Of a DNA stretch of 64,000 nt, positions 7,721-30,412 are shown piece by piece; position 1 is the stretch's first letter, and each line of letters starts with the position of its first letter. Below the pieces are notes generated by a model, which was given only the letters and a program-made list of their open reading frames with translations, was not told the origin of the DNA and did not search any database. The stretch spans positions 62,001 to 126,000 of the forward strand of contig JAQTLV010000002.1 of assembly GCA_028714675.1 (NCBI GenBank), given 5' to 3'. The stretch comes from Sulfurovaceae bacterium (GTDB taxonomy: Bacteria; Campylobacterota; Campylobacteria; Campylobacterales; Sulfurovaceae). A program made the position numbers and the translations under genes.

Positions 7721-9775
7721 TTAAACACTTTGTACAAATGAGCTAAGTATCTCTTTTTTGTTACCACCAAAATTAATAAGAAGTTTGTATTCTTTGCCGC
7801 TTGGGCTTATGTTTTGGATTCTTCCAATTCCAAATATTTTATGTTTTACTAAATCACCTTTTTTGAAAATGGCACTTTTTGTTATTTTTAAGCTACTGTT
7901 TTGGATTAGTCCAGCTTCGCCCAAAAATCTGCTTTTTTGCATAATTTTTCTTTTACCTTTATAAAATCTACTGTCGCAGTAACATAAAGTTATATGAGAT
8001 TTTGCTCTAGTTATCGCAACATATCCAAGTCTTCTCTCTTCTTCAATATTGCAATCATCTCCAAGTAATGGAAAAAATTCTTCTTCTAAGCCAATTACAT
8101 AAACATATTCAAATTCAAGTCCTTTTGAAGCATGTATGCTCATAATCGAAATTGCATCATTTTCAATACTATCTTGATCACTTTGTAGTGATATATCATT
8201 TAAAAACTCTTCTAGTTGTAAATCAGGATTCAGTAAAATACTTTCTTGAAAAAACCCATAAAATTCTTCAATATTTAAAACTCTCTCGTATCCATCTGGC
8301 AAACTTTGATAATATGCTTTGAGTTTAATTTTACTTTCAAGGATATCAAGAAGACTTGAGAGTTTCCCATCTTTTATTTCATCTTGTAAATCGATTAAAA
8401 TTTCAAAAAGCTCATCTAAAGAAAGAGTTGCTTTTTTACCAATCTCTTTTAGTATTAAATCTCTATGATTTTTATGGAGCGAAAATATTGAGCAATTATT
8501 TTTTAGAGATAGATTTTGAAGCTTTTCAATGGATGTTTTGCCAATGCCTCTTTTTGGTTTATTGATTATTCTCACAAGAGAAAAATCATCATTTATGTTA
8601 GTTAGTATTCTAAGATATGATATGGTATCTTTTATCTCGCTTCTCTCATAAAATCGTATTCCACCGATTAATTTATATGAAAGCCTCTCTTTTGTAAAAC
8701 CTTCTTCTAGTGAGCGCGAAAGGGCATTAATTCTATAAAGAACAGCAATATCTTTTGCTTCGGTGCCTTTGTCTATCAAGGATTTTATCTCTGTTGCTAT
8801 GCTCCTTGATTCATTACTTTCATCTGCAGAATGAATTATTTTTACACTACCACCTTCCCCTTTGTGGCTTACGAGTTTTTTGCCAAGTCTTGATGAATTA
8901 TGTTCAATAAGTAAGTTAGCGGCGTCTAGTATCTCTTTTTTGGATCTATAATTTGTTTCTAATTTTATAGTTTTTGTATTTGCAAAAATGTTAGCAAACT
9001 CAAGTATATTTCTTATGTTCGCACCCCTCCAGCCATAAATACTCTGATCATCATCTCCTACAACACATAAATTATTATGTTCACTTGCCAGTAACTCAAG
9101 TAATTTAAATTGCAATTCATTGGTATCTTGATATTCATCCACCATTATATAGGTATATTTTTTGCTTATCTCTTTTCTAAGTTCATTTTCTTGATCAAGA
9201 ATTTCATATGTAAGTTTTAATAAATCATCAAAATCAACTAAATTATCATCTTCTATATTTTTTTGGTATTCTTTGTATATTTGTGCTATTTTTTGATATT
9301 CTGGAATTTGCGCCTTATCTATAATTACCTGAGGGGAGAGAAGAGAATTTTTGTATTTTGATATTTCAGAAGCTACCAAAGATGCACTAATATCAAATTT
9401 TAACTCTTTGGCTATATTTCTTATTATTCTTTTTTTATCATCAGTATCTATTATCACAAAGTTATTTTTTCTTCCAATTTTTTCAATATGAAATTTTAGA
9501 AACAAAAGTCCAAATTTATGAAAAGTGCAAAGTAGTGGAGGATATATTTCTTTATTTTTAAGTAATTTTAATGCTCTTTCTCTCATTTCTCCAGCAGCTT
9601 TGTTTGTAAATGTCAAAGTCAAAGTATTTGCAGGGTCTATACCGATTTCCCCTATTAGATATGCCAGTCTTGATGTGAGCGTTTTTGTTTTTCCACTCCC
9701 AGCACCAGCTAGTATTAACATAGGGCCATCAATATGTTTTATGGCATTAAGTTGTTCTTCGTTTAAATTTTCCAA
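7721..9775 (-). CDS. UvrD/Rep/PcrA-family superfamily 1A DNA helicase
   Basis: An ATP-driven 3'-5' DNA helicase of 684 residues. Motif I is GAGSGKT (residues 24-30), motif II is DEYQDTN, motif III is GDDDQSIYGWRGA, motif IV/V residues follow and motif VI is GYVAITRAK. The C-terminus has a GDLVKHKIFGIGRI block like the small tudor-type domain of PcrA/UvrD. Members remove proteins from DNA, restart forks or act in excision repair. C. jejuni calls the gene at this position rep, but sequence alone does not separate Rep from UvrD or PcrA. It is the first gene of the helicase-truB-ispE-smpB operon. Confidence 0.93.
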   Translation of the reverse strand: MENLNEEQLNAIKHIDGPMLILAGAGSGKTKTLTSRLAYLIGEIGIDPANTLTLTFTNKAAGEMRERALKLLKNKEIYPPLLCTFHKFGLLFLKFHIEKIGRKNNFVIIDTDDKKRIIRNIAKELKFDISASLVASEISKYKNSLLSPQVIIDKAQIPEYQKIAQIYKEYQKNIEDDNLVDFDDLLKLTYEILDQENELRKEISKKYTYIMVDEYQDTNELQFKLLELLASEHNNLCVVGDDDQSIYGWRGANIRNILEFANIFANTKTIKLETNYRSKKEILDAANLLIEHNSSRLGKKLVSHKGEGGSVKIIHSADESNESRSIATEIKSLIDKGTEAKDIAVLYRINALSRSLEEGFTKERLSYKLIGGIRFYERSEIKDTISYLRILTNINDDFSLVRIINKPKRGIGKTSIEKLQNLSLKNNCSIFSLHKNHRDLILKEIGKKATLSLDELFEILIDLQDEIKDGKLSSLLDILESKIKLKAYYQSLPDGYERVLNIEEFYGFFQESILLNPDLQLEEFLNDISLQSDQDSIENDAISIMSIHASKGLEFEYVYVIGLEEEFFPLLGDDCNIEEERRLGYVAITRAKSHITLCYCDSRFYKGKRKIMQKSRFLGEAGLIQNSSLKITKSAIFKKGDLVKHKIFGIGRIQNISPSGKEYKLLINFGGNKKEILSSFVQSV

Positions 9776-12635: not shown

Positions 12636-13841
12636 ATGTTATTAGTTCATAAATATGGTGGCACCAGTGTTGGCGATTTAGAAAGAATCGAAAATGTCGC
12701 ATCAAGAATTATGAAAGCTTCAGATGCTGGGAATAATATAGTTGTAGTTGTTTCAGCTATGAGTGGAGAGACAAATAAGCTTATAGATTATGCAACACAT
12801 TTTACAACCACCCCAGCAAAACAAGAGATGGATATGCTTCTTAGTTCAGGTGAGAGAGTAACAGCCGCTTTGCTTGCAATTGCTCTACAGGCAAAAGGCT
12901 ACAAGGCAGTAGCGATGACTGGTCGTCAAGCTGGTATTGTAACGGATTCTGTGCATACATATGCTAGAATAAAATCAATAGACCCAAAAGCGATGCTAGA
13001 TGCTATAAATGATGGCAAAATAGTTATCGTTGCTGGTTTTCAAGGGATTAATGAAGATGGTAATGTAACAACGCTTGGACGTGGCGGAAGCGATTTGTCA
13101 GCTGTTGCAATTGCTGGTGCGATTAATGCCGATGCTTGTGAAATTTACAGCGATGTAGATGGTATTTATACAACAGATCCTAGAATAGAGCCAAAAGCAA
13201 AAAAACTTAATACTATCAGTTATGATGAAATGCTTGAAATGGCATCATTGGGAGCCAAGGTTTTGCAAAACCGTTCAGTAGAATTGGCTAAAAAATTGGA
13301 TGTAAAATTGTATGCAAAAAGCAGTTTTAGTGATAATGAAGGAACACTTATAACAAAGGAGAGCGCAAATATGGAAGAAGTTTTGGTTAGTGGAGTAGTT
13401 TTAGATAAAAATCAAGCTAGGGTAACTCTTAGAAATGTGTCAGATAGACCTGGAATTGCTGCTGAGATTTTTACAAAACTTGCCGAAATGGGAATAAATG
13501 TAGATATGATTACTCAAAATGTTGGTATTGATGGTTCAACAAATCTAGGATTTACAATACCTCAAAGTGAGTTAGACAATGCAAAAAGCGTAATAGAGTC
13601 TTTTGATCACGATATAGGCAGTATGGATTTTGATAAAAACTTATGTAAAGTTTCAGTTGTTGGTGTTGGTATGAAGTCACATGCTGGGGTTGCCGCAAAA
13701 GCATTTAGAACATTAGCTGCAAGTAATATAAATATACAAATGATTTCAACTAGTGAGATTAAAATTTCTGTAATTATAGATGAAAAATATGGCGAACTAG
13801 CTATTAGAATTTTACATGATGCATACGAGCTAGATAAATAA
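12636..13841 (+). CDS. lysC: Aspartate kinase
   Basis: Phosphorylates aspartate, the first step towards lysine, diaminopimelate, threonine and methionine. The N-terminal KYGGTSVG substrate loop is at residues 6-13. The kinase core contains SSGERVTAALLA and TLGRGGSDLSA. Two ACT domains fill about residues 265-401 and normally bind lysine or threonine for feedback control. Length of 401 residues is typical of the monofunctional enzyme. ATG 12636 lies one base after the rppH stop, and hobA starts one base after the lysC stop. Confidence 0.97.
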   Translation: MLLVHKYGGTSVGDLERIENVASRIMKASDAGNNIVVVVSAMSGETNKLIDYATHFTTTPAKQEMDMLLSSGERVTAALLAIALQAKGYKAVAMTGRQAGIVTDSVHTYARIKSIDPKAMLDAINDGKIVIVAGFQGINEDGNVTTLGRGGSDLSAVAIAGAINADACEIYSDVDGIYTTDPRIEPKAKKLNTISYDEMLEMASLGAKVLQNRSVELAKKLDVKLYAKSSFSDNEGTLITKESANMEEVLVSGVVLDKNQARVTLRNVSDRPGIAAEIFTKLAEMGINVDMITQNVGIDGSTNLGFTIPQSELDNAKSVIESFDHDIGSMDFDKNLCKVSVVGVGMKSHAGVAAKAFRTLAASNINIQMISTSEIKISVIIDEKYGELAIRILHDAYELDK

Positions 13842-16853: not shown

Positions 16854-20038
<3,185 letters not shown>

Positions 20039-20046
20039 AATACAAT

Positions 20047-20074
20047 GAAGATGAGATGCGAGGGATGGTGTGAG
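20047..20074 (+). repeat. ligA 3'-end repeat, copy 2
   Basis: 28 bp that match the ligA 3' end with one mismatch (AGGG for AGCG), nine bases after the TPR-gene stop. In the ligA frame it encodes EDEMRGMV and stop. The GTG that would follow opens only a four-codon frame here, so no gene starts at this copy. Confidence 0.85.
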
Positions 20075-20092
20075 GTTTGTTTGAGCTAACTA

Positions 20093-20101
20093 TGTTATAA
20101 T
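20093..20101 (+). promoter_or_regulatory. Extended -10 promoter for the RDD gene
   Basis: TGTTATAAT gives an extended -10 (TGn-TATAAT) 29 bp before ATG 20131, just upstream of the G9 tract, so the tract would lie in or next to the mRNA leader. Confidence 0.5.
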
Positions 20102-20117
20102 TAATTTATCACTTAGA

Positions 20118-20126
20118 GGGGGGGGG
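20118..20126 (+). repeat. G9 homopolymer tract in the leader of the RDD gene
   Basis: Nine consecutive G in an A+T-rich genome, four bases before ATG 20131. The last bases merge with the ribosome site GGGAG. Poly-G tracts of this length are the classical slip sites for phase variation in Campylobacterota. Here length change would move the Shine-Dalgarno context, not the reading frame. Confidence 0.85.
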
Positions 20127-20130
20127 AGTA

Positions 20131-20706
20131 ATGACTGATCAAATAGAAAATTATACGCTCAATAAAAAGGCTTGGTTGCGTTATTTTGCACGTATATCTG
20201 ATATGTTTTTTATGCTTATACTGTTAATAAGTGTTATGGGATTTGCATTTATGATTTTAGCATTAATTGCACTAAAACTATTTCCAAGTTACCTATTTCC
20301 ATGGGATATGCTTTCATCATTGCTAGTATTTGTTCAGACGCTATTAATAATTATTGTGTATCTATTTATTGAAGCAAAAATAATATCAAAATATGGCACA
20401 ACCCCATTTAAAAAATTATTAGGCATATCGATTGTCGATATAAATGGAGAAAAATTAGACTATAAAACTAGTTTGATAAGAAATCTAACATTATGGCTTA
20501 AGGGATTAGGCCTTACAATTCCTTTCATTTCTCTTATAGCATTAATTATGTCTTACAATGGATATGTAGAACAAGGCACCACCCCATGGGATAAAGACAA
20601 TGGTGTGGTAGTACAATATGAACCAATTAGTACTATAAGATTTGCTATTGGAATTATCTTTGGCATATCTGCTCTTATATTTAATGCTTATTTTTCATTT
20701 CAATAA
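20131..20706 (+). CDS. RDD family membrane protein
   Basis: A 191-residue inner-membrane protein with about four hydrophobic segments (residues 24-48, 62-84, 122-142 and 170-188). It has the RDD family pattern, an Arg in the first helix (WLRYFARISD) and Asp residues in it and the second motif (PFKKLLGISIVDINGEKLDYKTSLIRN). RDD proteins are poorly characterised; some act in ion or osmotic stress. Expression may be affected by the G9 tract just before the start. It stands alone between two copies of the ligA 3'-end repeat. Confidence 0.85.
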   Translation: MTDQIENYTLNKKAWLRYFARISDMFFMLILLISVMGFAFMILALIALKLFPSYLFPWDMLSSLLVFVQTLLIIIVYLFIEAKIISKYGTTPFKKLLGISIVDINGEKLDYKTSLIRNLTLWLKGLGLTIPFISLIALIMSYNGYVEQGTTPWDKDNGVVVQYEPISTIRFAIGIIFGISALIFNAYFSFQ

Positions 20707-20770
20707 AACTTATTCGTTTGCACTAGCCTATAAGCATTAAAAATAAAGAAATGATAGGTATGATAAACAA

Positions 20771-20881
20771 ATGAAACCACAATTTGAGATAAAAGATAGA
20801 AGCATCATCAATGATATATTGGTAAATGCTCAGTATGGCACTTTGGTTTTATGTGAAGATGAAATGCGAGGGATGGTGTGA
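20771..20881 (+). pseudogene. Truncated NimA-like gene fused to the ligA 3' end
   Basis: The first 92 bp are about 90 percent identical to the 5' end of the intact flavin-binding gene at 22541 and give MKPQFEIKDRSII in the same frame. At GAAGATGA the sequence switches to the ligA 3' end and ends EDEMRGMV and stop, a 36-codon chimera. The intact gene and ligA share the 11-mer AGCGAAGATGA exactly at this switch point (22622-22632 and 18783-18793), so the joint fits recombination at short homology. No strong ribosome site is seen and a functional product is unlikely. Confidence 0.8.
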
Positions 20882-20882
20882 G
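20855..20882 (+). repeat. ligA 3'-end repeat, copy 3
   Basis: 28 bp with two mismatches to ligA and one to copy 2 (GAAATG for GAGATG). As at ligA, the terminal GTGTGAG supplies a GTG start (20878) for the next gene. The change AGCG to AGGG places an AGGG ribosome-site core eight bases before that GTG. Confidence 0.85.
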
Positions 20883-21513
20883 AGCCAATAAAGAACATAT
20901 ATTTTGTGAATCTATTCATCCATATAATGATGAGAAGTTTAATTTTGAGAAAGCAAAAACATTTATCATAGGTAGCATTCCGCCACATAGATTCTCTGAA
21001 CCAAAAAATCTTTTATGTGGCGATATTGATTGGTATTACGGAAGCAAAGATAACTCATTTTGGGATATTTTAAAAGAGAGTTGTTGTGATAGTAAATTTG
21101 CTCTATGTACAAAAGAAAATCGGCAAAAATTTTGCGAAGATAATGAAATTGGCATTTTTGATATGATACAAAAATGTACACGCAAAGATGGGTGTGGTTC
21201 ATCAGATTCTGATTTGTATAATATTGAACTTATTGATGCCTGTGAGATAATTTTTAGAAATAAAAATACCGGATTGAAACTTTTTTTTACAAGTATTTTT
21301 GTTGCAGATTTATTTTGTAAACAAACTGGAGTTAAGATTGATCTCAAAAATCGTCAAATTCAAGAAATATCTATTTGCAAGAAAAATTGTGAAGTGATAA
21401 TCCTTTATTCACCTTCGCCTTCATGGTCTCGTGGACTTAAAGTGTTAAGTGAAAAAACTTCTCAAGAAAAAAAGCAAATAAGAATTAATCAATATAAGCA
21501 CATTTGCTCTTGA
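20878..21513 (+). CDS. Uracil-DNA glycosylase superfamily (Mug-like) protein
   Basis: A 211-residue protein with the arrangement of small UDG/Mug-type glycosylases: FIIGSIPPHRF as the first strand and loop, WYYGSKDNSFWDIL as the YGxxxNxFW motif, IGIFDMIQKC as a second conserved strand, and LYSPSPSWSRG as the C-terminal active-site loop (usually PSTSPAN-like). Members excise uracil or other damaged bases; substrate cannot be told and the DNA-repair role is inferred. The start GTG 20878 sits in copy 3 of the ligA 3'-end repeat, giving the same GTGA overlap as ligA with its neighbour. Confidence 0.72.
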   Translation: MRANKEHIFCESIHPYNDEKFNFEKAKTFIIGSIPPHRFSEPKNLLCGDIDWYYGSKDNSFWDILKESCCDSKFALCTKENRQKFCEDNEIGIFDMIQKCTRKDGCGSSDSDLYNIELIDACEIIFRNKNTGLKLFFTSIFVADLFCKQTGVKIDLKNRQIQEISICKKNCEVIILYSPSPSWSRGLKVLSEKTSQEKKQIRINQYKHICS

Positions 21514-21538
21514 CAAATAGTATCAAATATGATACTAT
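21510..21538 (+). promoter_or_regulatory. Sigma-70 promoter of the XRE/Fic pair
   Basis: TTGACA at 21510-21515 and TACTAT at 21533-21538 are separated by 17 bp. The first palindromic operator lies between and over these elements, so a bound repressor would exclude RNA polymerase. Confidence 0.65.
21518..21537. promoter_or_regulatory. Operator 1: perfect 8-bp inverted repeat
   Basis: TAGTATCA and TGATACTA are exact reverse complements around a 4-bp AATA spacer. The site covers the -35/-10 gap of the XRE promoter. An identical site lies 32 bp downstream, about three helical turns, on the same face of DNA. Confidence 0.85.
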
Positions 21539-21549
21539 GCTAAAAATAT

Positions 21550-21569
21550 TAGTATCAAATATGATACTA
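21550..21569. promoter_or_regulatory. Operator 2: identical inverted repeat
   Basis: The same 20-bp palindrome as operator 1, ending 15 bp before the XRE start codon at 21585. Two identical sites at whole-turn spacing fit cooperative binding by the XRE dimer encoded next. Confidence 0.85.
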
Positions 21570-21584
21570 TAGAAAGGTACTTAT

Positions 21585-21950
21585 ATGAGAATAGTAGAAG
21601 CACTTAGAAAACAAAAAGAAGTTCTTGGTATCTCTTACGAGTCGATAGCCATTCGTTCTGGTGTTGGTATAGCAACAGTCAAAAGAGCCTTTGGTGGGCA
21701 AGATATATCATTGGAGAGATTAGAGAAGATAGCTGAAGCCATCGGATGCCAAATAGGCATCAAAGCAACAATCTCTGCAAACAATCTTTATAATGCCCAG
21801 ATTGAGAAAAAGGCACAGGAAATTGTAAAGCGAGTGATGCAGACTTCTGCGCTAGAAGATCAAGCAGTAGACGCAAAGGCTCAAGCAAAAATGTTAACCC
21901 AAGCAAAAGCAAGGATAGCTAAGATGCCAAGATCACAGGTTTGGGGATGA
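21585..21950 (+). CDS. XRE-type HTH regulator, likely antitoxin/autorepressor (mobile mystery protein A-like)
   Basis: A 121-residue protein with a helix-turn-helix at about residues 16-50 (LGISYESIAIRSGVGIATVKRAF) and an Ala/Gln-rich helical C-terminal half. It lies directly before a Fic-domain gene with a 4-bp ATGA overlap, and two palindromic operators stand before it, so it most likely represses its own operon. XRE/Fic pairs occur as the mobile mystery protein A/B family. Part of its coding sequence approaches 47 percent G+C, above the window average, which fits transfer. A ribosome site GAAAGG precedes ATG 21585. Confidence 0.82.
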   Translation: MRIVEALRKQKEVLGISYESIAIRSGVGIATVKRAFGGQDISLERLEKIAEAIGCQIGIKATISANNLYNAQIEKKAQEIVKRVMQTSALEDQAVDAKAQAKMLTQAKARIAKMPRSQVWG

Positions 21951-22519
21951 TTGTTTTTGACAAAGAGGGTGAGACACCCCTTGATGATATATCGGGATTG
22001 AAGTTTGAGATAGCAACTCGTAAAGAGCTTGATGAGGCAGAAGCTCAAAATATATTGAAGGCTTATCTCAAATACACACTAAATTCATCCAAGCTCAAAA
22101 ATGTAACCTTTGATTTGAACTTTTTTCGTAAACTCCACAAAGAGATGTTTGGCGATGTTTGGAGCTGGGCAGGAGAGTTTAGAACAACCCAAACTTCTAT
22201 AGGCGTTGAAGCAAATAAAATTCATCTAGCTTTATATCAGTTGCAGGATGATTTGAAATTTTGGGAAGAAAATTGGAATTATCAAGATACGGCCGTGAGA
22301 TTGCACCATAGTTTGGTAAAAATTCATCCATTTTTGAACGGCAATGGTAGATGGGCGAGGTTTGTAGTAGATTTATGGCTACTTAAACATGGGCATAATG
22401 TTCTTTCTTGGGGTGGTGACATTAATGAAATATCTACCATAAGAAATGAGTATATAGCAGCATTGAAAGAAGCTGATAATGGAGCTTATGAGAAATTGAA
22501 ACAATTTATGTTTTCTTAA
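21947..22519 (+). CDS. Fic/Doc family protein (mobile mystery protein B-like)
   Basis: A 190-residue single-domain Fic protein. The active-site loop is HPFLNGNGRWAR with His127; the usual Asp/Glu after the aromatic-x pair is Asn, as in mobile mystery protein B. Fic enzymes transfer AMP or other nucleotides or phosphate to hydroxyl side chains of target proteins. The N-terminal block (EGETPLDD, ATRKELDEAEAQNI, MFGDVWSWAGEFR) is also typical of that family. I use ATG 21947, which overlaps the XRE stop as ATGA, rather than TTG 21941. No SxxxEG inhibitory helix is seen in this protein; control is probably through the XRE partner. Confidence 0.88.
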   Translation: MIVFDKEGETPLDDISGLKFEIATRKELDEAEAQNILKAYLKYTLNSSKLKNVTFDLNFFRKLHKEMFGDVWSWAGEFRTTQTSIGVEANKIHLALYQLQDDLKFWEENWNYQDTAVRLHHSLVKIHPFLNGNGRWARFVVDLWLLKHGHNVLSWGGDINEISTIRNEYIAALKEADNGAYEKLKQFMFS

Positions 22520-22540
22520 ACAGTTAAAGGGAGTTTTACA

Positions 22541-23140
22541 ATGAAACCACAATTTGAGATAAAAGATAGAAGCATCATAGATGATATATTGGTAAGTGCA
22601 GAGTATGGCACTTTGGCTTTGAGCGAAGATGATATACCATATAGTGTGCCTGTAAATTTTGCTCATCAAAGAGATATTGTCTATTTTCATGGCTCATTAA
22701 AAGGTCGAAAAGCAGAGATGATAAGTAAAAATCCTTTATGTTCTTTTAGCGTTGTAGAGCCTTACTCGATGATACAGTCATATTTTAGTTCCAGCGAAGG
22801 GCTTGCATGTCCTGCGACACATTTTTTTAGATCAGTAAGCATACAAGGCAAGATAGAGATAGTAAGTGAGTATGATGAAAAAGTTTTGGCTTTAGAGTTG
22901 CTCATGCAAAAGTTGCAAAGCGAAGGTAATTATAAGCCAATGAGCGATGAAGTGTATCAAAAAACTATAAACATAACACAAGTATTTAAGATACTTATCG
23001 CAGATATAAAAGGCAAAGTCAAATTGGGACAACATCTCCCGCAGGAGCGATTTGATATGATACTGGAACATCTTGAGCTTAGAGGCAATGAGATAGATAA
23101 ATTGACCGCCAAAGAGATGATAGAGCAAAGAGAAAAATGA
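22541..23140 (+). CDS. Pyridoxamine 5'-phosphate oxidase-like flavin protein (NimA-like)
   Basis: A 199-residue split-barrel protein of the PNPOx-like flavin-binding group, closest in layout to nitroimidazole-resistance NimA proteins: ILVSAEYGTLALSEDDIPYSVPVNF, then VYFHGSLKGRK, and CSFSVV. Members bind FMN or haem and reduce small molecules. True PdxH is longer in motif content and is not supported. GGGAG precedes ATG 22541. A truncated second copy of its 5' end lies at 20771, and the sequence over its stop codon (23137-23157) also resembles its own first 21 bases. Confidence 0.8.
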   Translation: MKPQFEIKDRSIIDDILVSAEYGTLALSEDDIPYSVPVNFAHQRDIVYFHGSLKGRKAEMISKNPLCSFSVVEPYSMIQSYFSSSEGLACPATHFFRSVSIQGKIEIVSEYDEKVLALELLMQKLQSEGNYKPMSDEVYQKTINITQVFKILIADIKGKVKLGQHLPQERFDMILEHLELRGNEIDKLTAKEMIEQREK

Positions 23141-23161
23141 AACCAAAATTTGGGGTAATAT

Positions 23162-23938
23162 ATGAAAAAAACTAAACAAACAAGTTGGGATCCAAATAAA
23201 TATAATGTAAATTCCAAAGGGCAGGCGATATGGGCGAAAGAGTTGATAGACAAGATAGGCATAGAAGGTTACGAGTCTATCTTAGATATTGGTTGTGGTG
23301 ATGGGAAAATCACAGAAGATTTGGCTCAAATCACAACAGGCGAAGTTGTAGGGATTGATTTTGACCAAAATATGGTAGATTTTGCAAAAGAGATATATAA
23401 AAAACCTACTTTTATACAAATGGATGCACAAAATATAAATTTTGAAAACAGATTTGATATAGTATTCTCAAACGCTGCATTGCATTGGGTGCAAGATCAC
23501 AAGGCGGTTGTGAATGGAATATATAAAGCTTTAAAAAGAAATGGAAAAGCGATATTACAGATGGGCGGCGAAGGCAATGCCAAAGATGTATTTGAAGCAT
23601 TGGAGAAAATCACGCCAAATTATGCGAAATATCTTCAAGGCTATAAATCTCCTTATCGTTTTTGTTCTGACATATATTATAATGATTTGCTTGGGCAGGT
23701 TGGATTTAGCAAATATAATGCAAAATTAATACAAAAAGATATGGTTCATGATGATGTAACAGCTTTTAAGGGATGGCTAGAGACTACATGGTTTCCATTT
23801 ATAGATAGAATACCTAAATCTTTAAAAGAAACTTTTCTAAAAGAGTGGATAGATACTTATTTGGATTATTTTCCTCAAGATGAAAATGGTAAAATACATA
23901 TTGCTATGATAAGACTCGAAGTCGAGGCTGTCAAATAA
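23162..23938 (+). CDS. Class I SAM-dependent methyltransferase, trans-aconitate methyltransferase-like
   Basis: A 258-residue Rossmann-type methyltransferase. Motif I is ILDIGCGDGKITEDL (about residues 40-54), followed by VVGIDFDQNMVDFA and the post-motif FSNAALHWVQDH. The NAALHW block and overall length resemble Tam (trans-aconitate 2-methyltransferase), but the small-molecule substrate is not certain. The start ATG 23162 has a GGGG-rich ribosome site. It lies 21 bp after the NimA-like gene and 20 bp before an exported hydrolase, so the three may form one transcript. Confidence 0.85.
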   Translation: MKKTKQTSWDPNKYNVNSKGQAIWAKELIDKIGIEGYESILDIGCGDGKITEDLAQITTGEVVGIDFDQNMVDFAKEIYKKPTFIQMDAQNINFENRFDIVFSNAALHWVQDHKAVVNGIYKALKRNGKAILQMGGEGNAKDVFEALEKITPNYAKYLQGYKSPYRFCSDIYYNDLLGQVGFSKYNAKLIQKDMVHDDVTAFKGWLETTWFPFIDRIPKSLKETFLKEWIDTYLDYFPQDENGKIHIAMIRLEVEAVK

Positions 23939-28367: not shown

Positions 28368-29696
28368 ATGCCAAAAAGTATAATAGAACCATTGCCATTC
28401 AAATTTGACTATAATTTATATGATGTGCGTGAAAATATTCAGTATTTATTAAAATATAAAGCCACAAATGAAGATGGTAAATATCTATATTGGGATAAGT
28501 TTAGATTTCATGTCAATAAAGATGATAATCCGAAAATAGCATGGTGGGCGACAAAATTCAATAGATTTACAAACCGTAAAACTCTAAATTTGAGAGATAA
28601 AAAAAATGATTTTTTTTATTTTTCAATCCCAGATGCATTGCAAGCAAAATTATATAAAATTATGCAAAAAGCAAATCAGGGTATAGTTCCACATGACTCT
28701 ATAAAGAAACAATATCTCATATCTTCATTGATTATGGAAGAAGCTATTAGTAGTTCACAGCTTGAAGGTGCGGCAACTACAAGAAAAGTTGCCAAAGATA
28801 TGATAGTAAGTCAAAGAAAACCAAGAAGTGAAGATGAGTGGATGATACTCAATAATTATTTATTGCTAATAGAAGTAAAAAAAGCAAAAAATGATAATTT
28901 ATCCATGGGATTAATAAAAGAATTTCATAAAATTGCTACACAAAATACATCTCATAATAAAGTAATAGCAGGTGAATTTAGAAATTCAGATGATATAGTT
29001 ATAACTGATGGATATGATGTTATTTTTGAGCCTCCAACTTTTGATGAAATAGACAAAAGATTGCAAAAATTATGTTATTTTGCAAATACAAATCATCATG
29101 AAGATAATCCAAAAGAGTTTATAGACCCGATAGTAAAAGCAATTATATTGCATTTTATGATTGGCTATATTCATCCATTTAATGATGGTAATGGCAGAGT
29201 TGCAAGAGCTTTGTTTTATTGGTATATGCTAAAAAATGGGTTTGATTATTTTGAGTATGTGTCAATTAGTTCTTTACTAAAAAATGCACCCAAACAATAT
29301 GCACTATCTTATTTGTATAGCGAAAATGATGACAATGATATTACTTATTTTATTTCTTATCAACTAGATATTATGCTAAGAGCCATTGAAGAACTTTTAA
29401 AATATCTTCAAGCTAAAAGCAATGATTTTGAAGAAGCTCTTGATATATTTAAACACTCAAGATATAACGATTTGTTTAATTTTATTCAAAAAGATGTTGT
29501 TAAAAAAGCGATTAAAGAAGCTGGCAGAGTATTTACTGCCAAAGAAATAGCAATTGATTACAGCATATCAGAAAATAGTGCTAGAAAATATCTCAATGAG
29601 TTGGCTAGTCATCAATTGTTATTTACTAGTAAAAAAGGTAAAAGTATTATGTATATTGCTACAAATGATATTAGAAATAGGTTGGCTCACAAATGA
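28368..29696 (+). CDS. Fic family protein with C-terminal winged helix
   Basis: A 442-residue multi-domain Fic protein. The N-terminal part carries the inhibitory-helix motif SxxxEG (SSQLEGA) typical of class II Fic enzymes. The catalytic loop HPFNDGNGRVAR has His269 and the full acidic motif, so adenylylation activity is likely. A C-terminal HTH lies near residues 385-430 (FTAKEIAIDYSISENSARKYLNEL). This type usually acts alone and may bind its own promoter; a palindrome lies next to the -10. Its stop overlaps the tlyA start as ATGA, so an accessory gene is fused tightly to a core operon. Confidence 0.9.
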   Translation: MPKSIIEPLPFKFDYNLYDVRENIQYLLKYKATNEDGKYLYWDKFRFHVNKDDNPKIAWWATKFNRFTNRKTLNLRDKKNDFFYFSIPDALQAKLYKIMQKANQGIVPHDSIKKQYLISSLIMEEAISSSQLEGAATTRKVAKDMIVSQRKPRSEDEWMILNNYLLLIEVKKAKNDNLSMGLIKEFHKIATQNTSHNKVIAGEFRNSDDIVITDGYDVIFEPPTFDEIDKRLQKLCYFANTNHHEDNPKEFIDPIVKAIILHFMIGYIHPFNDGNGRVARALFYWYMLKNGFDYFEYVSISSLLKNAPKQYALSYLYSENDDNDITYFISYQLDIMLRAIEELLKYLQAKSNDFEEALDIFKHSRYNDLFNFIQKDVVKKAIKEAGRVFTAKEIAIDYSISENSARKYLNELASHQLLFTSKKGKSIMYIATNDIRNRLAHK

Positions 29697-30412
29697 GACT
29701 AGATGTATATTTGGTAGAAAATGGTTATTTTGAGAGTAGAAATAGAGCATTAGAGGCTATAAAATCAGGTAAAGTAAAAGTTGATGGTAAGATAGCTAAG
29801 CCTTCTGTTAAGTGTGATGAGAAGAGTAATGTTGAAGTTGAAAATGAAAAATTTTACGCCAGTAGGGCAGGCAGAAAGCTTGAAGCTTTTTTAGAAGAAC
29901 ACGAGATAGACTTAAATGGTAAAAAAGCTTTGGATATAGGATCATCCACAGGTGGATTCGCTCAAATTTTACTTGAAAATGGTGTAGAAAGTTTGACATG
30001 TGTAGATGTGGGGACAAATCAGCTTCATTTTACTATCAGAGATGATAAAAGAGCTGAAGTTCATGAAAATTGTGACATAAGAAATTTTAGAATTGATGGC
30101 GGATTTGGAGTTATAAGTTGTGATGTGTCTTTTATATCATTAGAAGATATTTTAAATGACATAAATACTTTGGCATTATATAATTGCGACATTATACTTT
30201 TATATAAACCACAATTTGAAGTTGGTAGATTGGTAAAAAGAGATAGCAATGGCGTAGTAACAGATATTGATGCTATCAGACACACAAGAGTTGGATTTGA
30301 GAAAAAATGCGAAGAGCTTGGTTGGAAAAAGATTATAGATATTCCTTCTAGGATACAAGGGAAAGAAGGCAATATAGAGTATTTTTATCATTTTAGAAAG
30401 GTTGAAGTTTGA
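29693..30412 (+). CDS. tlyA: rRNA 2'-O-methyltransferase TlyA
   Basis: Methylates riboses of 16S and/or 23S rRNA, which affects capreomycin sensitivity. The 239 residues comprise an N-terminal S4 RNA-binding domain (MRLDVYLVENGYFESRNRA) and an FtsJ-like Rossmann domain with ALDIGSSTGGFAQILLE near residue 80. Length is at the short side of the family (type II TlyA lacks nothing obvious). It overlaps the Fic gene before it and ribF after it by 4 bp each. In C. jejuni, as I recall, tlyA-ribF-cmoA follow ligA almost directly. Confidence 0.94.
   Translation: MRLDVYLVENGYFESRNRALEAIKSGKVKVDGKIAKPSVKCDEKSNVEVENEKFYASRAGRKLEAFLEEHEIDLNGKKALDIGSSTGGFAQILLENGVESLTCVDVGTNQLHFTIRDDKRAEVHENCDIRNFRIDGGFGVISCDVSFISLEDILNDINTLALYNCDIILLYKPQFEVGRLVKRDSNGVVTDIDAIRHTRVGFEKKCEELGWKKIIDIPSRIQGKEGNIEYFYHFRKVEV

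Follow-up and report, generated by a model that had tools for sequence, protein, structure and literature searches.

Elements driven by an integrase typically insert at the 3′ end of a gene and restore that end. Hotspots that are poor in mobile genetic elements (MGE), with recombination at the flanking core genes, form another described class (Oliveira et al., 2017; PMC5635113), and homology-facilitated illegitimate recombination has been described in naturally competent species (PMC3240628). Tandem duplication belongs among these comparisons as well: according to a passage in PMC11111574 that cites Anderson and Roth (1978), the joints that it creates can put the following gene under new expression signals. 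Our literature search on Sulfurovum islands, on short-patch illegitimate recombination and on tandem-duplication joints accompanied by gene loss found no match to the locus described here. We analyzed a 64-kb stretch of DNA (64,000 nucleotides, hereafter the window) from a Sulfurovum-like bacterium, in which a short chimera of two genes represents a genuine recombination scar within a region of gene swapping.

The region lies between two core genes. Its left flank, ligA (16866-18812, +), encodes the NAD-dependent DNA ligase (Pfam DNA_ligase_aden, OB and BRCT) and has orthologs in 54 of 59 relatives. Its right flank, tlyA (29693-30412, +), adjoins ligA directly, at a distance of 0, in three relatives (G006, G022 and G031); in other members of the genus the two genes are separated by 2.3-10.9 kb of differing cargo. 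This cargo includes a C5 methylase and a restriction-type ATPase in G009, ankyrin and PIN proteins in G003, and AAA ATPases in G004 and G010; a pair of XRE and Fic genes (mobile mystery proteins A and B) is found in the window and in G010, and XRE alone in G003 and G004. Recombination also touches the flank itself: LigA of G004 is native up to about residue 478, of a long-LigA type up to about residue 885, and native again thereafter, the long type belonging to a different genus (g11; G020). As judged from these sequences, LigA of G004 is a between-genus mosaic, and recombination reaches into ligA. The long LigA proteins (about 965-1000 aa; G004 ligA at L101:2809-5703, G020 ligA on L043) carry an extra stretch of about 320 residues, a second HhH-like region before BRCT. 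Conserved core flanks, variable content, a recombined flank (LigA of G004) and the lack of an integrase or transposase among the interval proteins scanned, both in the window and in relatives, together mark the ligA-tlyA interval as a hotspot of gene exchange.

In the window, the last 27 bases of ligA are the source-type ligA end, here termed copy 1 (native; GAAGATGAGATGCGAGCGATGGTGTGAG; 18786-18813, +). They are followed by a TPR-repeat cargo gene (18809-20038, +), whose furthest-upstream start, a GTG, overlaps the ligA stop, and by a second, miniature chimera of 12 codons (20035-20073, +), whose ATG overlaps the TPR stop and which joins ATGAAATACAAT to ligA end copy 2 (20047-20073); its 12-base 5′ part is perhaps the start of an MFS or Nim gene. 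Next come a gene for an RDD-family membrane protein (20131-20706, +; Pfam RDD), again cargo, the main chimera, and a DNA-glycosylase-like cargo gene (20878-21513, +) with a weak match to NCBIfam TIGR04274 (32 bits against a cut-off of 80). Nine consecutive G (20118-20126) just ahead of the RDD start, within the probable ribosome-binding site, form a candidate slippage (phase-variation) tract. The XRE regulator gene (21585-21950, +; mobile mystery protein A-like), which recurs in the interval of G003, G004 and G010, precedes a gene for a Fic protein (21941-22519, +; mobile mystery protein B; NCBIfam TIGR02613, above cut-off). Two identical near-palindromes, TAGTATCAAATATGATACTAT, lie upstream of the XRE gene at 21518-21538 and 21550-21570 and are likely the operator of the XRE-Fic pair; similar palindromes precede XRE in G004 and G010. 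The intact Nim-like flavoprotein gene, the parent gene for the chimera's 5′ part, occupies 22541-23140 (+; Pfam Pyridox_ox_2) and scores 66.6 bits against NCBIfam NimABCDEF, for which the cut-off is 260. Its stop codon is overlapped by a degenerate Nim start (ATGAAACCAAAATTTGGGG...; 23137-23168, +) that is identical at 26/32 positions, where the best of 500 shuffled 11.8-kb intervals gave 24/32. A second, longer Fic-family gene (SoFic-like by PADLOC) stands just before tlyA, at 28368-29696.

The chimera itself is an open reading frame of 36 aa, MKPQFEIKDRSIINDILVNAQYGTLVLCEDEMRGMV, at 20771-20881 (+). The initial annotation had described it as a NimA-like 5′ end fused in frame to the 3′ end of ligA, and that description holds, as both parents were matched and the frame is open across the joint; the roughly 90% identity that had been noted to the start of the gene at 22541 was likewise recovered, over 20770-20865. 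The Nim-derived part (20771-20860, +) is identical to the window gene from 22541 onward at 79/88 positions and to the Nim gene of G004 at 81/88. Whole-genome comparison aligned 20770-20865 with 22540-22635 (90% identity, E 5e-31) and 20855-20882 with the ligA 3′ end at 18786-18813 (26/28 identical, E 4.7e-5), and it gave E values of 6e-7 and 5e-5 for the other two ligA ends of the window. The ligA end, which had been placed at two sites, in fact occurs three times in the window, at 18786-18812, 20047-20073 and 20855-20881. A direct-repeat scan of the 64-kb window (seed 16, minimum length 27) passed only the Nim-start and ligA-end families. On the strength of these alignments, we regard the joint as no product of chance. 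An assembly artefact was also considered and ruled out, the identical joint being present in two independent assemblies. Of the 199 Nim residues, the chimera retains the first 30 only, so that the full-length Pyridox_ox_2 domain (about 150 aa) is absent, and a scan for promoters and terminators gave a result no better than shuffled sequence.

With respect to the joint, the shared sequence is shorter than had been proposed. The initial annotation had the two genes recombine at an 11-bp homology, AGCGAAGATGA, which ligA and the Nim gene of the window do indeed contain; the chimera, however, reads TTATGTGAAGAT and not TTGAGCGAAGAT, and the repeat is missing in G004, a relative with the same chimera, which is one of the findings that the annotation had said would count against it. 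At the joint position the Nim gene of G004 reads TGTGAAGACAAT. Because the Nim genes of G004 (TTATGTGAAGACAAT) and of G072, from another genus (CTATGTAGTGAC), read otherwise when compared at the joint, the AGC by which the window's Nim gene extends the match probably arose later. By this comparison, the 11-bp homology would be a later coincidence and the ancestral overlap GAAGAY, about 6 bp; the Nim gene that took part in the joint probably had TGTGAAGAY, overlapping ligA at the six or so bases of GAAGAY. In the window, the homology common to both parents is GAAGAT (20855-20860, +). The joint is in frame because Nim and ligA both encode Glu-Asp there, in the same phase.

The same 36-aa reading frame is present in another species of the genus (G004; JAFGVX01), on the minus strand of L076 at about 13156-13266, and its surroundings there are unrelated to those in the window. 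On its left, the ATG of the chimera is overlapped by the stop of an XRE gene, and on its right is a gene for an AAA_14/DUF4143 ATPase, unlike the RDD and glycosylase genes that flank it in the window. Over 113 bases the two genomes are similar at this place, the boundaries lying close to the ATG and the TGA. Only 9 of 111 bases differ, five of the nine differences altering the protein, at a fourfold-site divergence for the same genome pair of 21-40% (ligA, Nim, XRE, MFS and other neighbors). Under unconstrained vertical inheritance, the probability of nine or fewer differences is 4e-11 at 35% divergence and 5e-6 at 25%; unconstrained DNA inherited vertically from the common ancestor would not differ so little, and recent transfer or selection on the reading frame could be the cause. 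Since the chimera survives in a second species, among different neighbors, its age or mobility exceeds that of a simple leftover of local duplication. The G004 assembly is a fragmented MAG in which a contig gap separates ligA from the chimera.

How the copies relate to one another is suggested by two sets of sites, each of them a small-number argument. A common derivation is suggested for the three ligA ends beyond the native ones (copies 2 and 3 of the window and that of the G004 chimera) by their shared CGAGGGATGG, a sequence that the ligA genes compared all lack. At three positions of the Nim half (29, 32 and 66), on the other hand, each chimera groups with the resident Nim gene of the same genome, which could point to conversion by that gene or exchange with it, or to separate origins at one and the same site. 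A decayed ligA 3′ end is also found in G004 (L076 9372-9411, minus strand; 27/36 identical, a match reached in 0/1000 shuffles), separated from the downstream intact Nim gene by about 110 bases.

Across the family, pattern scans located extra ligA ends only in the window genome and in G004; five genomes of the genus had the Nim start, always within the ligA-tlyA interval. Remnants of the Nim start persist in three more species, over 32 bases in G003, 31 in G005 and 46 in G009, and the remnant joints of G009 and G005 share about 4-7 bp. In G009 (L034, about 8368-8440), the first 46 or so bases of Nim are joined to a Nim 3′ piece at GATA, a structure that would have arisen by deletion between GATA repeats; in G005, the Nim start runs into sequence 5′ of the MFS gene, with about seven bases shared at the joint. 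A comparable fusion in G003 (L035:6709-7236) links the 13-codon start of a methyltransferase-like gene (window 25778) in frame to a DsrE-family gene. The family-wide scans also found two Nim-like genes, one apparently truncated, in G072, which belongs to another genus. Pattern scans of contigs gave no match in viral contigs and, in genome contigs, ligA ends and the G004 chimera only. Beside ligA, none of 14 further relatives, each queried with its own ligA end, showed repeats of that end. A ligA-end match in G010 was examined as an extra copy and rejected, being the true ligA end.

Several histories could lead to such a locus. The simplest is local: one tandem duplication from the ligA end to Nim between short repeats, followed by losses that left the fragment as a dead fossil. 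This is what had been proposed, and part of it stands, as the order of the halves of the chimera and the short homology at the joint both fit a tandem-duplication novel joint; moreover, XRE lies to the left of the chimera in G004 and to its right in the window, as if a unit containing XRE had been doubled. The remnants that a duplicate should leave are absent, however. Comparison of 18813-20770 with 20882-22540 gave chance-level matches only, with no leftover duplicate sequence, and no remnants of intervening genes attest to the later loss of one copy of each gene that had been invoked. The predicted single-copy order (ligA-TPR-RDD-UDG-XRE-Fic-Nim) and intact tandem duplicates were both absent from 175 family genomes, because the TPR, RDD and glycosylase genes have no close relatives there. 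The absence of the 11-bp repeat from the relative with the chimera, the need for a further event to make the second ligA-end copy, and a joint in another species that is far less diverged than neutral DNA all weigh against it, and one local duplication with subsequent loss is not enough to account for a scar that different species retain in unlike neighborhoods. We consider this history unlikely. A tentative alternative dispenses with the loss step: during DNA uptake, incoming DNA would have paired with the resident ligA at one end by homology-facilitated illegitimate recombination, and its other end, broken in a Nim gene, would have been joined at GAAGA of the resident ligA end, adding a ligA end, cargo and a Nim start at once. 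Unique cargo immediately after the ligA ends would then need no gene loss, and the TPR and glycosylase genes both start on a GTG overlapping a ligA stop; a ComEC domain and DprA genes are present (gene presence alone), and the between-genus mosaic in ligA of G004 is in keeping with such a process. Under this mechanism, nevertheless, the window's own ligA should change origin within its 3′ part, where an identity profile against G009 shows no foreign tract, and two such events at the same six bases are required.

Conservation of the reading frame might instead reflect usefulness, for example as a translational-coupling leader, as each ligA end brings a ribosome-binding stretch (GAGGG or similar) and a GTG that overlaps its TGA. 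In copy 3 (20855-20882, +), which carries GAGGG, that GTG is the start of the next gene: the only start in the first 95 codons of the glycosylase-like gene lies inside the ligA-end copy, and since there is no other start before codon 96, the chimera, on sequence grounds, very likely supplies the start codon. The frame is also open in both species, with similarity that stops at its start and stop, and in G022 and G031 the ligA end is joined directly to tlyA through the same overlap. Yet the G004 chimera is uncoupled, its next gene having its own signals about 75 bases on, the GTG of window copy 2 opens only four codons, and five of the nine differences change the protein. We regard a function of this kind as quite improbable; as the scar in G004 is uncoupled to a gene, the supply of a start codon is a local consequence and not a general reason for conservation. 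The 27-base direct repeats that flank unrelated cargo would also suit a ligA end serving as attachment site of an integrase-driven element, with the copies as its left and right ends. This is highly improbable, given that the interval proteins scanned include no integrase or transposase, that only some of the repeat copies run on into Nim sequence, and on one side, and that other genomes carry cargo at the same place without ligA-end repeats.

The reading that we favor, at a probability of roughly 0.6, is that of a short-homology joint in an apparently integrase-free ligA-tlyA exchange hotspot, which has since been kept or exchanged as shared homology; it is preferred because there is no residual duplicate, the cargo is unique, and the joint is conserved in unlike neighborhoods. 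Recombination at about 6 bp (GAAGAY) would have put the start of a Nim-like gene before a copy of the ligA 3′ end, whether by tandem duplication of the interval from ligA end to Nim start or by additive insertion there. The joint may have formed once, in an interval where cargo between ligA and tlyA comes and goes and short remnants of gene starts and gene ends stay. The 111-bp piece may subsequently have been kept or exchanged as homology for the recombination of incoming DNA, and the cargo on both sides of it would have been replaced with the joint retained. This role as an anchor rests on one comparison, since only two genomes carry the full chimera. The chimera is ordinary in kind and unusually well preserved. 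A bolder extension makes it a portable anchor, at which integrase-free, cassette-like modules, each with a ligA end to its left and a Nim start to its right, are added or swapped by ordinary recombination at chimeric junctions. We think this rather unlikely, as we do its corollary that the result is an array of cargo modules separated by such junctions. If the anchor reading were true, cassette-like arrays could arise without a dedicated recombinase, which would bear on why many transfer hotspots lack mobile elements. The locus otherwise offers a sequence-level record of gene gain and loss in an apparently integrase-free hotspot, with joints at a few shared bases, remnants opening with a start codon or closing with a stop codon, and a single joint that has outlived its neighbors in two species.

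Set against known systems, the locus shows both likenesses and differences. As in the novel joint of a tandem duplication, the start of a downstream gene is fused to the end of an upstream gene at a few shared bases; here, however, the duplicated unit is gone and the joint is conserved between species in different neighborhoods. Homology-facilitated illegitimate recombination (PMC3240628) could make a joint of this type, with one homologous end (ligA) and the other at a few bases, although no foreign tract was seen in the 3′ part of the window's ligA. Unlike genes separated by a repeated short sequence recall the gene-cassette arrays of integrons, from which the interval differs in that the scanned proteins include no integrase or other site-specific recombinase and the repeats are pieces of coding genes. 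It resembles the MGE-free hotspots (Oliveira et al., 2017; PMC5635113) in its variable cargo between two core genes, in the integrase-free proteins scanned and in the recombination seen in a relative's flanking core gene, and is set apart from them by an interval that carries short repeats of the flanking gene's end and the resident gene's start.
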